64,000 nt of DNA. It comes from an uncultured Ruminococcus sp. (GTDB lineage: Bacteria; Bacillota; Clostridia; Oscillospirales; Acutalibacteraceae). The stretch lies in the NCBI GenBank assembly GCA_902785555.1, contig CACZZB010000008.1, positions 1-64,000 on the forward strand. Direction: 5' to 3'. The notes under the pieces are model-generated. The model saw only the letters and a program-made list of their open reading frames with translations, did not search any database and was not told where the DNA came from. The first letter of the stretch is position 1. Every line of letters starts with the position of its first letter. Positions 31,180-35,848 of the stretch are shown piece after piece. Made by a program: the position numbers and the translations under genes.

Positions 31180-31208
31180 TTGAAATAAGTTCAAAATAAT
31201 GTTATAAT
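31180..31208 (+). promoter_or_regulatory. Promoter of the hyd maturation operon
   Basis: TTGAAA (31180-31185), 17-base spacer, TATAAT (31203-31208). Transcription should begin near 31215, leaving about 160 bases of leader before the first start codon. Confidence 0.8.
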
Positions 31209-31214
31209 CTTTTT

Positions 31215-31352
31215 GCGGTTGAGCATAAAAGTTTCGTACTGTATGCAAAACTTTAAACTTATCTGACACAAAAGATGATTTTTTCTGATGTGAAAGGCTG
31301 TATTTTTTCATGGAATAACTGCACCCTTTTCATATCGGAAGGGTGTTTTTTG
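31215..31352 (+). promoter_or_regulatory. Structured leader with internal terminator before TM1266-like/hydEGF
   Basis: The leader ends in a terminator: CACCCTT (31322-31328) with AAGGGTG (31339-31345), then TTTTTTG, 22 bases before the gene. Near the 5' end two interleaved pairings are possible, GCATA with TATGC and AAAGTTT with AAACTTT, the topology of an H-type pseudoknot. TGAAAGG further on could pair with CCTTTTCA of the terminator arm as an antiterminator. No known riboswitch class was recognised. Pairings were found by eye. Confidence 0.55.
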
Positions 31353-31373
31353 TTTGCTGAAAAGAGGAGTTCT

Positions 31374-31619
31374 ATGGAAAACAGAGTTTCTATCATCGGA
31401 ATTATCGTGGAAAATACAGATTCCATTGACAGGCTTAATGATATTCTCCATGATTACGGCAATTATATCATCGGCAGAATGGGTATTCCCTATAAAACAA
31501 AAAATCTGAATGTCATAAGTATAGTCCTTGATGCTCCCGTTGATGTCATCAACAGACTGTCGGGAAAAATCGGTATGCTTGACGGCATTACTTCAAAGGT
31601 TGTGTGTTCCAAAAAATGA
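31374..31619 (+). CDS. TM1266-family putative [FeFe]-hydrogenase system regulator
   Basis: 81 residues from ATG 31374 (AAGAGGAG upstream); a longer in-frame start at 31275 would lie inside the leader. Ferredoxin-like ACT/NikR-type fold: RVSIIGIIVENTDSIDRLNDILHDYG then GRMGIPYKTKNLNVISIVLDAP. Small proteins of this kind lie next to hydE/hydF/hydG in many anaerobes and are thought to be regulators. Its stop overlaps the hydE start (ATGA). Confidence 0.85.
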   Translation: MENRVSIIGIIVENTDSIDRLNDILHDYGNYIIGRMGIPYKTKNLNVISIVLDAPVDVINRLSGKIGMLDGITSKVVCSKK

Positions 31620-32668
31620 AAGAGCTTATTGACAAACTGTATAAAAATACCGTTCTTTCCAAACAGGAATATAAATATCTCATAGAGAATTTCAACCCCG
31701 AAATATCCGAATATCTCTTTGAAAAATCCCGTGAAGTAAGACACAGGTATTACGGGCATGATATATATATCCGTGGACTGATAGAATTTACCAATTACTG
31801 CAAAAATGACTGCTATTACTGCGGTATACGCTGTTCAAACAGAAATGCACAAAGATACAGGCTCTCAAAAGATGATATCCTTTCATGCTGTAAAGAGGGG
31901 TATGAACTCGGTTTCAGAACATTCGTGCTTCAGGGCGGTGAAGATAATTATTTCACTGATGACAAAATGACGGATATTATCAGCGAGATGAAAAATAACT
32001 ATCCCGACTGTGCAGTAACGCTTTCAATCGGAGAAAAATCCCGTGAAAGCTATGAAAGATTTTTCAATGCAGGTGCAGACAGATATTTATTACGCCATGA
32101 AACAGCCAATAATGAACATTATTCAAAACTTCACCCTGACAAACTTTCACCAATCAATCGCAAAAGATGCTTGCGTGACTTGAAAGAAATTGGCTATCAG
32201 GTAGGATGCGGTTTCATGGTAGGCTCGCCTTTCCAGACTGCCGAAAACTTAGCCGAAGATATGATATTCCTCAAAGAATTTCGGCCTCACATGGTCGGGA
32301 TAGGTCCTTTTATTGCCCAGCATGATACACCTTTCAGGGATATGCCAAACGGTACTCTTGAACTGACACTTTTCATGCTCGGTCTGATAAGACTGACTTT
32401 GCCTTATGTGCTGCTGCCGTCAACTACTGCACTCGGTACTATACATCCTCTCGGACGTGAAAAAGGCATTTTAGCCGGTGCAAATGTCATCATGCCGAAT
32501 TTATCACCTGTTTCGGTCAGAAAAAAATATATGCTTTATGACAATAAGATCTGTACAGGTGACGAAGCTGCCGAATGTAAAAACTGTCTGCAATCCCGTA
32601 TGCGATCAATAGGCTACAATGTAGTCACCTCCCGTGGAGACTGCAAACAATCAGCAATCAGCAATTAG
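31616..32668 (+). CDS. hydE: [FeFe]-hydrogenase maturation radical SAM protein HydE
   Basis: 350 residues from ATG 31616. Radical SAM cluster Cys62, Cys66, Cys69 in NYCKNDCYYCG, then LQGGEDNYF and MVGSPFQT. HydE helps to build the H-cluster dithiolate-bridged diiron precursor. The last residues (CKQSAISN) and the stop are encoded by dispersed repeat C, so the C-terminus is atypical and appears acquired; the catalytic core is complete. Confidence 0.95.
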   Translation: MKELIDKLYKNTVLSKQEYKYLIENFNPEISEYLFEKSREVRHRYYGHDIYIRGLIEFTNYCKNDCYYCGIRCSNRNAQRYRLSKDDILSCCKEGYELGFRTFVLQGGEDNYFTDDKMTDIISEMKNNYPDCAVTLSIGEKSRESYERFFNAGADRYLLRHETANNEHYSKLHPDKLSPINRKRCLRDLKEIGYQVGCGFMVGSPFQTAENLAEDMIFLKEFRPHMVGIGPFIAQHDTPFRDMPNGTLELTLFMLGLIRLTLPYVLLPSTTALGTIHPLGREKGILAGANVIMPNLSPVSVRKKYMLYDNKICTGDEAAECKNCLQSRMRSIGYNVVTSRGDCKQSAISN

Positions 32669-32682: not shown

Positions 32683-32732
32683 TTGTACTATCTATATTTT
32701 ATAATTTATTTATTGAAAGGAAGTTTTTTAAA

Positions 32733-34154
32733 ATGAAATACGATCCGAAATCACCTCATGCAGAGGAATTTATCAATGACGAGGAAATAAAAGCCTGTCT
32801 TGAGTATGCAGAAAAAAACAAGCATAATGTCGAGCTTATCGACCAGATACTCGAAAAGGCAAGACTTGAAAAAGGTCTTTCACACAAAGAAGCCCTTGTT
32901 TTGCTTGACTGTGACATTGAAGAAAAAAATCAGGAGATATTTGCACTCGCTGAACAAATCAAGAAAAATTACTATGGCAACAGAATAGTTATGTTTGCTC
33001 CGCTGTATCTTTCAAATTACTGTGTCAACGGCTGTCTGTACTGCCCGTATCATCTCAAGAACAAGCATATCGCACGTAAAAAACTTACTCAGGAAGAAAT
33101 CAGAAATGAAGTTATCGCCTTGCAGGATATGGGTCATAAAAGACTCGCCCTTGAAGCAGGCGAAGACCCTGTCAACAATCCTATCGAGTACATCCTTGAA
33201 AGTATCAAGACTATTTACAGCATAAAGCATAAAAACGGTGCTATCAGACGTGTAAATGTAAATATTGCCGCAACCACTCACGAAAATTACAAGAAACTCA
33301 AAGATGCAGGAATAGGAACTTATATCCTTTTCCAGGAAACCTATAACAAGGAAAGCTATGAAAGACTCCACCCCACAGGTCCCAAGCATAACTACAATTA
33401 TCATACAGAGGCTATGGACAGAGCTATGGAAGCAGGCATTGATGATGTAGGATGTGGTGTACTTTTCGGACTTGAACTGTACAGATATGAATTTGTGGGC
33501 ATTCTCATGCACGCTGAACATCTTGAAGCACGTTTCGGTGTAGGTCCTCATACAATAAGCGTACCGAGAGTAAGACGTGCAGATGACATTGACCCCGATG
33601 TATTCGACAATGGTATCTCTGATGATACTTTTGCCAAGATAGTTGCCTGTATCAGAATAGCTGTTCCGTATACGGGCATGATAGTTTCTACCCGTGAAAG
33701 TCAGAAAAGCCGTGAAAGAGTTCTGCATCTCGGTGTTTCACAGATAAGCGGAGGTTCAAAGACAAGCGTTGGCGGATATGCCGAGCCTTGTGACGAAGAC
33801 GAGGACTCAGCACAGTTTGATGTAAGCGACAGAAGAACTCTTGATGAAGTCGTAAAATGGCTCATGGAACTCGGATATATACCGAGCTTCTGTACGGCTT
33901 GTTACAGAGAAGGCAGAACAGGCGACAGATTCATGTCACTGTGCAAGGCAGGTCAGATACAGAACTGCTGTCACCCCAATGCACTTATGACGCTCAAAGA
34001 ATATCTTGAGGATTACGCTTCACCCGAAACAAAAGAAATAGGCGAAAAACTCATACTTGCAGAGCTTAATAATATCCCGAAAGAAAAAGTCCGTGAAATC
34101 ACAAAAGAACATCTTGCAGATATCGTCAATGGCAAAAGAGATTTCAGATTCTAA
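32733..34154 (+). CDS. hydG: [FeFe]-hydrogenase maturation radical SAM protein HydG
   Basis: 473 residues from ATG 32733 (GAAAGGAAG upstream). Tyrosine lyase that supplies CO and cyanide ligands for the H-cluster. The radical SAM motif CVNGCLYC gives Cys97, Cys101, Cys104. The second cluster motif at the C-terminus is CTACYREGRTGDRF...CKAGQIQNCC. Follows hydE in the operon. Confidence 0.97.
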   Translation: MKYDPKSPHAEEFINDEEIKACLEYAEKNKHNVELIDQILEKARLEKGLSHKEALVLLDCDIEEKNQEIFALAEQIKKNYYGNRIVMFAPLYLSNYCVNGCLYCPYHLKNKHIARKKLTQEEIRNEVIALQDMGHKRLALEAGEDPVNNPIEYILESIKTIYSIKHKNGAIRRVNVNIAATTHENYKKLKDAGIGTYILFQETYNKESYERLHPTGPKHNYNYHTEAMDRAMEAGIDDVGCGVLFGLELYRYEFVGILMHAEHLEARFGVGPHTISVPRVRRADDIDPDVFDNGISDDTFAKIVACIRIAVPYTGMIVSTRESQKSRERVLHLGVSQISGGSKTSVGGYAEPCDEDEDSAQFDVSDRRTLDEVVKWLMELGYIPSFCTACYREGRTGDRFMSLCKAGQIQNCCHPNALMTLKEYLEDYASPETKEIGEKLILAELNNIPKEKVREITKEHLADIVNGKRDFRF

Positions 34155-34212: not shown

Positions 34213-34234
34213 ATTTTAAATTCAGGTGTTTTAT

Positions 34235-34633
34235 ATGGAAATAATAGAATACAACAATTATGAAAGCGTCAAAAATGCCCGTGAGAAAGATGAACCCTTG
34301 ATGGCTGTCATATCATTTGACGGCTCAAAAGCCTATGTATGCCATATAGATGATGGCGTGGAGCATCATATTTTATTGATGAAGGTCGGATACAAAGGTA
34401 CAGAAATAGATGAATTTTTCAGGATAATATTTGATAAAGACGGTGCCGACTGGACTTTCATCTGTCCGCCCAATTACAAAAATATCAACTATAAATCAAA
34501 ACGAATAAAGCAGTTTTATAAAGACGGCATCAGTACCATATCGGAATTTTTAGCAGATTTCGGTTATTTGTGCGATATAAAAATACCTAAAAGATACAGC
34601 CGTCATCTGAACGCCATGCTTGAAGATGAATGA
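34235..34633 (+). CDS. Unknown protein within the hyd operon
   Basis: 132 residues from ATG 34235 (AGGTG 7 bases upstream). Begins MEIIEYNNYESVKNARE, then AVISFDGSKAYVCHIDDGVEHHILL, predicted alpha/beta with an acidic C-terminus. I do not recognise the family. It lies between hydG and hydF on the same strand, 15 bases before hydF, so it is co-transcribed with the H-cluster maturation genes and may serve them. Confidence 0.72.
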   Translation: MEIIEYNNYESVKNAREKDEPLMAVISFDGSKAYVCHIDDGVEHHILLMKVGYKGTEIDEFFRIIFDKDGADWTFICPPNYKNINYKSKRIKQFYKDGISTISEFLADFGYLCDIKIPKRYSRHLNAMLEDE

Positions 34634-34648
34634 AAGGAGAAAATTTTT

Positions 34649-35848
34649 ATGTCACTAAACAATACACCTTCTGCCGAAAGAGTGCATATAGCATTTTTCG
34701 GAAAGAGAAATTCGGGCAAATCAAGTTTACTCAACGCTGTTACCAATCAGAATATCGCAATAGTATCGGATATTCTCGGAACAACCACCGACCCTGTTTT
34801 CAAGGCAATGGAACTGTTGCCTCTGGGTGCTGTTATGATGATAGATACAGCAGGCATTGATGATGAGGGTGAACTCGGTATTATGCGAGTACAAAAAACT
34901 TTGCGTATTCTCAATAAAACAGATATTGCCGTTCTGGTGGTTGACAGTATAAAGGGATTGACGGATTATGAAAATAATCTGATTGAGAAATTCAGGAATA
35001 AAAATATTCCGTATATAATTGCATATAATAAAAGCGATTTGAAAAAAATTTCTCCTCGGAATGAAAATGAAATAAATGTGAGTGCTGTTACAGGTGAAAA
35101 CATACACGAACTTAAAGAGCTTATCGCAAAACAGCACGGCAAAATTGAAGATAAAAAAATTGTCGCACATCTTCTGAATAAAAATGATTTTGTTGTCCTT
35201 GTAGTACCGATAGACGAATCAGCTCCGAAAGGTCGTCTGATATTGCCACAGGTGCAGACTATCAGGGAACTTCTCGACAATGAAATGATACCTGTTGTGA
35301 CCCGTGATACAACTCTTAAAGAAACTCTCGCTTCACTCGGAAAAAAGCCTGCACTTGTAATAACGGACAGTCAGGTTTTCGGCAAAGTCGGCAAGGATAT
35401 TCCCGCTGACATTTTACTGACATCATTTTCTATACTTATGGCGAATTACAAGAGTGACCTGAAAGCACTCGTTAAAGGAGTAAAAGCCATTGATGAACTG
35501 AAAGACGGTGACAAAGTGCTTATATCGGAGGGGTGTACACATCACCGTCAGTGCAACGATATAGGTACTGTAAAACTCCCGAAACTTTTAAGGAAATACA
35601 CCGGTAAATTCCTTGACTTCAAATGGACATCCGGTACGGAATTTGAAGAAGACCTCAGCGGATATAAACTCATAATACACTGCGGAGGCTGTATGCTGAA
35701 TGAAAGAGAGATGAAATACAGGCTCAAATGTGCTGTTGACCAAAACGTACCTATGACAAACTACGGTACGGCTATTGCATACATGAACGGCATACTTAAA
35801 AGAAGCCTGTCCGTTTTCAGGGACATTTCCGCAATACTTGAAAATTGA
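34649..35848 (+). CDS. hydF: [FeFe]-hydrogenase maturation GTPase HydF
   Basis: 399 residues. N-terminal GTPase: P-loop GKRNSGKS (residues 18-25), DTAG, and NKSD. Central dimerisation domain. C-terminal [4Fe-4S] site with CTHHRQC, then about 50 residues and HCGGC, matching the CxH...HCxxC signature. HydF is the scaffold that receives the diiron unit from HydE/HydG and delivers it to the hydrogenase. The hydrogenase structural gene is not in the window. Confidence 0.97.
   Translation: MSLNNTPSAERVHIAFFGKRNSGKSSLLNAVTNQNIAIVSDILGTTTDPVFKAMELLPLGAVMMIDTAGIDDEGELGIMRVQKTLRILNKTDIAVLVVDSIKGLTDYENNLIEKFRNKNIPYIIAYNKSDLKKISPRNENEINVSAVTGENIHELKELIAKQHGKIEDKKIVAHLLNKNDFVVLVVPIDESAPKGRLILPQVQTIRELLDNEMIPVVTRDTTLKETLASLGKKPALVITDSQVFGKVGKDIPADILLTSFSILMANYKSDLKALVKGVKAIDELKDGDKVLISEGCTHHRQCNDIGTVKLPKLLRKYTGKFLDFKWTSGTEFEEDLSGYKLIIHCGGCMLNEREMKYRLKCAVDQNVPMTNYGTAIAYMNGILKRSLSVFRDISAILEN

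Follow-up and report, generated by a model that had tools for sequence, protein, structure and literature searches.

How is [FeFe]-hydrogenase H-cluster assembly controlled? Its regulation is largely open, and TM1266, named a putative regulator of the system, has stayed unexplained. The question arises at a locus in the window analyzed here, a stretch of 64,000 nucleotides from an uncultured Ruminococcus sp., in which a terminator-ended leader precedes a TM1266-hydEGF operon on the forward strand. The TM1266-like putative regulator comes first (31374..31619, ATG at 31374; PF21699, TIGR03959), followed by the radical SAM maturases HydE (31616..32668; TIGR03956, 613 bits) and HydG (32730..34154; TIGR03955, 942 bits) and by the maturation GTPase HydF (34649..35848; TIGR03918, 567 bits). 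A 135-residue protein encoded between hydG and hydF (34226-34633, +) matched no Pfam or NCBIfam model. The earlier note on this DNA had described an uncharacterised, switch-like leader running from a consensus promoter to an intrinsic terminator before the first gene, and our results support this description. The promoter (TTGAAA-17 nt-TATAAT with a TG before the -10 box; 31180-31208, +) has 11 of 12 consensus bases and is the top-scoring site of the region, with a predicted transcription start at about 31215. The terminator (31321..31352, +) consists of the stem GCACCCUUUUCAUAUCGGAAGGGUGU (31321-31346, -12.9 kcal/mol) and a U-tract, just before the TM1266 ATG. The leader folds with a z-score of -3.9, and none of 200 shuffled sequences was equally stable.

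The functional unit of this leader is a pair of small tandem hairpins. Pairing is conserved in stems P1 and P2 of both and in an antiterminator. Hairpin copy 1, GGUUGA-GCAUA-AAAGUUUCGUACUG-UAUGC-AAAAC, lies at 31217..31252 (+), immediately 3' of the predicted start, with P1 at 31223-31227/31242-31246. Copy 2, CUGA-CACA-AAAGAUGAUUUUUUCUGA-UGUG-AAAGG, lies at 31263..31297 (+), with P1 at 31267-31270/31289-31292 and P2 at 31273-31275/31284-31286; it matches R1, our model of copy 2, with 44.4 bits and is supported by covariation. The earlier note had missed copy 2, the better conserved hairpin of the leader, and had read an H-type pseudoknot from the interleaving of GCATA/TATGC with AAAGTTT/AAACTTT. 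Covariation among related leaders, the check it had suggested, splits this proposal: GCATA/TATGC is a real covarying stem, but it serves as P1 of copy 1, whereas AAAGTTT/AAACTTT (31228-31234/31248-31254) occurs in the window and is lost in close relatives, which have TTAGCTT, TAAGCTT or the like in its place, with no complement after it. The pseudoknot is therefore rejected.

When about 80 leaders of TM1266 genes were compared, mostly from the window's genus and the rest from a wider search, we observed a recurrent hairpin, often as a tandem pair and in some leaders as a single copy, with the consensus CUGA-P1-nAAR..YUGA-P1'-RAAGG. Within the genus, copy 1 takes the form GGUUGA-P1-AAGCUUCGUGCU-P1'-GAAAC right after the predicted start site, and the leaders of near relatives that were read have a -10-like box some 10-12 nt upstream of GGUUGA. 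Copy 2 of related leaders keeps the consensus form and precedes the terminator. Across 106 matches to copy 2 (97 distinct sequences), 95.5% of the P1/P2 cells were paired, with 186 double-change cells against 54.5 after shuffling; the covariation score was 0.72 against 0.05-0.12 in slid controls, a wide gap, although fitting the alignment to the model helps the score. For copy 1, where the loop and not the pairing served to locate the hairpin, P1 was paired at 91% in 22 sequences, compared to a shuffled mean of 56% and a maximum of 70%. The unpaired bases around P1 (CUGA, nAA, UGA and RAA) are conserved as well. An extended outer stem past the C-G closing pair of copy 2 was considered and was unconserved in the flanks read by eye. 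A kink-turn (box C/D; a 3-nt bulge beside tandem G.A pairs) was also rejected, the lower loop being a symmetric UGA/RAA in the alignment rows, which leave out the form captured by our second model, R2. Overall, the leader is a real, conserved, structured RNA element.

A covarying structure in a 5' leader is here joined to an expression platform. In the predicted fold, an antiterminator hairpin (31280..31343, +) pairs CUGAUGUGAAAGG with CCCUUUUCAUAUCGG; it takes up P1' and AAAGG of copy 2 as well as the terminator's 5' arm and loop, and thus excludes both copy 2 and the terminator. The predicted energy of the antiterminator fold is -38.0 kcal/mol, compared to -31.4 kcal/mol for the best terminator-containing fold (a difference of 6.6 kcal/mol), and a transcript ended at 31300 is predicted to form both hairpins of the tandem pair. 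The suggestion that TGAAAGG competes for the terminator arm thus proved right in the window, where it pairs with the 5' arm, and it holds across the family. A terminator-like hairpin was found 3' of the motif at 93 of 105 loci, and several loci yielded no U-tract terminator. The terminator 5' arm and loop are complementary to RAAGG(N), in 61% at p<=0.05 per locus, and the two sides change together (AAAGG/CCUUU, GAAGG/CCUUC, AAAGAUG/CAUCUUU). In predicted pairing and in co-change, the anti-antiterminator hairpin, the antiterminator and the terminator are mutually exclusive, as in a PyrR-like mechanism. Any one AT-rich leader could by chance contain each of these parts, and a plain terminator amid fortuitous secondary structure would then involve no regulated switch; family-wide covariation and the alternative pairing contradict this, as does the location of strong matches almost only before hyd or TM1266 genes, so that we regard it as extremely improbable. 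With near certainty, the RNA belongs to a new attenuator family that is Clostridia-wide.

The motif also appears in a second setting. At three loci (L186, L188 and L190) its AAAGGTGG lies immediately 5' of the hydG start, in the ribosome-binding region. A further operon (L205, - strand) has two copies, at 106-135 and 1501-1531, one preceding TM1266 and the other just upstream of hydG; the latter is followed by AAGGGTG and is perhaps a ribosome-binding-site version too. Since RAAGG is used either by the antiterminator or by the hydG ribosome-binding region, hairpin formation is predicted to be the OFF direction in both settings. The same exchanges would be expected of a true riboswitch, in which two tandem, cooperative aptamers would bind a pathway metabolite or ion directly and TM1266 would merely belong to the same pathway or sense the same ligand. 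A small hairpin with conserved unpaired bases flanking P1 is what a metabolite aptamer should look like, and the tandem copies, the two kinds of expression platform and the copies placed between genes fit such an RNA. This is the main rival to the reading we prefer, in which TM1266 reads the RNA, and we consider it possible although rather unlikely.

We analyzed the distribution of the motif in samples of 64 genomes of the genus, 200 of the family and 391 of the class, with a cut-off of E<=1e-3 for the latter two; strict filters on large genome sets limit the sensitivity of R1 and of R2, the model of a divergent form. In the genus, strong R1 matches were hyd leaders and weak ones were mostly coding sequence, with no convincing leader among the weak matches outside hyd loci. 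Matches in the family and class samples precede TM1266, hydE, hydG or hydF, apart from three that we count as chance and TM1266 operons in genomes in which HydG was not found. The three are those in G349 and G517, with no hyd gene close by, and one in G378 (L204) within an apparent coding sequence. A second copy in the window's own genome, within a response-regulator gene (contig C68), was likewise treated as chance. The motif was found in 68 of the 391 class genomes (36 true R1 matches and 32 added by R2). The first recognised gene after the motif was TM1266 for 78 of 99 copies, HydG for 10, HydE for 5 and HydF for 2; the remaining four, from loci that lie at the end of a contig or locus or close to one, are unplaced. 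Some copies are intergenic, between TM1266 and hydF, hydG or hydE. At one locus (L296, 2145-5313 in reverse-complement coordinates), the motif, an ECF transporter S component, a HydE-like radical SAM protein scoring under the HydE cut-off, TM1266 and HydF stand in a row.

The candidacy of TM1266 as partner, raised by the earlier note, is backed by genome-wide co-occurrence. Of the 391 class genomes, 237 encode TM1266 and 246 encode HydG. TM1266 is present in each of the 68 with the motif, and none of the 53 genomes with HydG and lacking TM1266 has a true motif match (Fisher p = 2e-8, or 5e-6 counting chance matches, both uncorrected for kinship). TM1266 and the motif are both present yet unlinked in G224, G375, G533, G541 and G548 at least. 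Such strict dependence at the genome level, even without linkage, is unexpected for an RNA that works without a protein, and argues against a riboswitch. Conversely, 130 class genomes with HydG and TM1266 gave no motif match at the cut-off, many of them showing divergent forms by eye, and some TM1266 loci, such as L238, L241, L248 and L256, showed no motif form by eye. In the genus, TM1266 was found in 56 of 64 genomes; in six of the other eight, HydE too gave no match above the cut-off, and the last two are G026 and G027. One of the two HydE genes of G026 has neither TM1266 nor the motif before it, and the other lies at a contig edge. Within the genus, moreover, residue 4 of TM1266 matches the hairpin subclass (R/K with the "GA" form in 36 of 36, H with the "G" form in 17 of 19), which also speaks against a riboswitch; shared descent could explain this match too. 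More generally, common ancestry or a common operon function may underlie the co-occurrence of motif and TM1266. Some other, general RNA-binding protein could control the leader, with TM1266 co-occurring by descent; proteins commonly bind small stems flanked by GA-rich internal loops. This would leave the absence of the motif from genomes with HydG and lacking TM1266 unexplained, and we saw no second gene recurring with the motif as TM1266 does, which makes it quite unlikely.

In the TM1266 protein of the window, the TM1266 domain is the only one found, with no DNA-binding domain. The family (PF21699, TIGR03959), with a solved structure (2nzc), is annotated as a putative iron-only hydrogenase system regulator, and a nickel responsive regulator profile matched weakly. 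In the literature searched, where a draft genome note was the one paper naming both TM1266 and hydrogenase, we found no target or ligand of TM1266.

HydG was not found in five motif genomes, and the operon read in four of them (L291-L294) always contained TM1266, so that the RNA is tied more closely to TM1266 than to the hydrogenase. Two of these operons, in G403 and G626, have the motif ahead of TM1266, a FecCD permease and an ATPase; NifH-like and nitrogenase component 1-like genes come next, together with a binding protein. In the other two, in G276 and G639 (L293 1657-4380, and L294), the motif stands before TM1266 and an SsuA/NMT1-type ABC transporter. Under a riboswitch, the maturases, the FecCD and SsuA-type transporters and the nitrogenase-like genes could share one ligand. 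The ABC transporter ATPase of G403 (L291 6265-7318, -) has a C-terminal TM1266-like domain (PF21699, residues 273-346), and in G626 (L292) TM1266 likewise matched a second time, within a long frame. The domain on a transporter ATPase is a hint that the TM1266 domain binds a transported ligand.

Taken together, these results lead us to propose, with a probability of about 0.5 and from sequence comparison, a PyrR-like attenuator read by TM1266, which has no DNA-binding domain and would sense an effector. RNA polymerase would transcribe the two tandem hairpins first. If they were not stabilised, the 3' strand of copy 2 (P1' and RAAGG) would pair with the terminator 5' arm, the antiterminator would form and the operon would be ON; if copy 2 were stabilised, RAAGG would be unavailable, the terminator would form and the operon would be OFF. 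In the few genomes with RAAGG in the hydG ribosome-binding region, control would be translational and of the same sign. The stabiliser would most likely be TM1266, the first product of the operon, giving an autoregulatory circuit like that of PyrR, and TM1266 would act when carrying an effector tied to the state of the controlled pathway, such as a metal or sulfur species or a cofactor precursor. Somewhat more tentatively, at a shade under an even chance, TM1266 would be an effector-sensing RNA-binding protein that locks the tandem hairpin, the same pair governing [FeFe]-hydrogenase maturation, a nitrogenase-like cluster and ABC uptake in Clostridia, with the domain also placed on a transporter ATPase. 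TM1266 as the reader is the leading hypothesis, and it gains a concrete candidate RNA target; the reach of the circuit into nitrogenase-like and transport operons should help to find the sensed compound.

Compared with known systems, the family adds to the catalogue of Clostridia-wide structured RNAs and is absent from Rfam 15. At gathering thresholds, scans of the window and 39 other loci returned only tRNAs and, on the opposite strand of L025, an unrelated T-box, so that the leader matches none of the riboswitch classes in Rfam. Its best score in the window was for PyrR (RF00515; 23.6 bits, the gathering score being 54), and a score of 19.4 bits for the L10 leader stayed below the threshold of 44. 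Hydrogenase maturation genes are unmentioned in the motif-discovery papers searched, a set that leaves out Weinberg 2017 and Greenlee 2018, and in riboswitch reviews. Tandem riboswitches, reported in the Wco class upstream of hydrogenase genes (PMC9481103), resemble the leader in that two similar domains feed one terminator; unlike them, it matches no Rfam riboswitch, and no Wco-type match was found in the loci scanned. No operon gene tested encodes a protein with a CAT RNA-binding domain. The RAT sites of LicT and SacT (BglG family) are hairpins of about 30 nt with two internal loops whose pairing competes with a terminator, and our hairpin shares both features; binding to RAT prevents termination, however, whereas the bound state should favour it here. 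PyrR attenuation differs in that the sequence and structure of RF00515 are unmatched, TM1266 is not of the PyrR type and two copies stand here before one terminator. It is alike in the hairpin that excludes an antiterminator, in the autoregulation, proposed here, of the first gene and in the further copies between operon genes, the pyr operons having attenuator copies between genes in a layout that resembles the intergenic copies of our motif.
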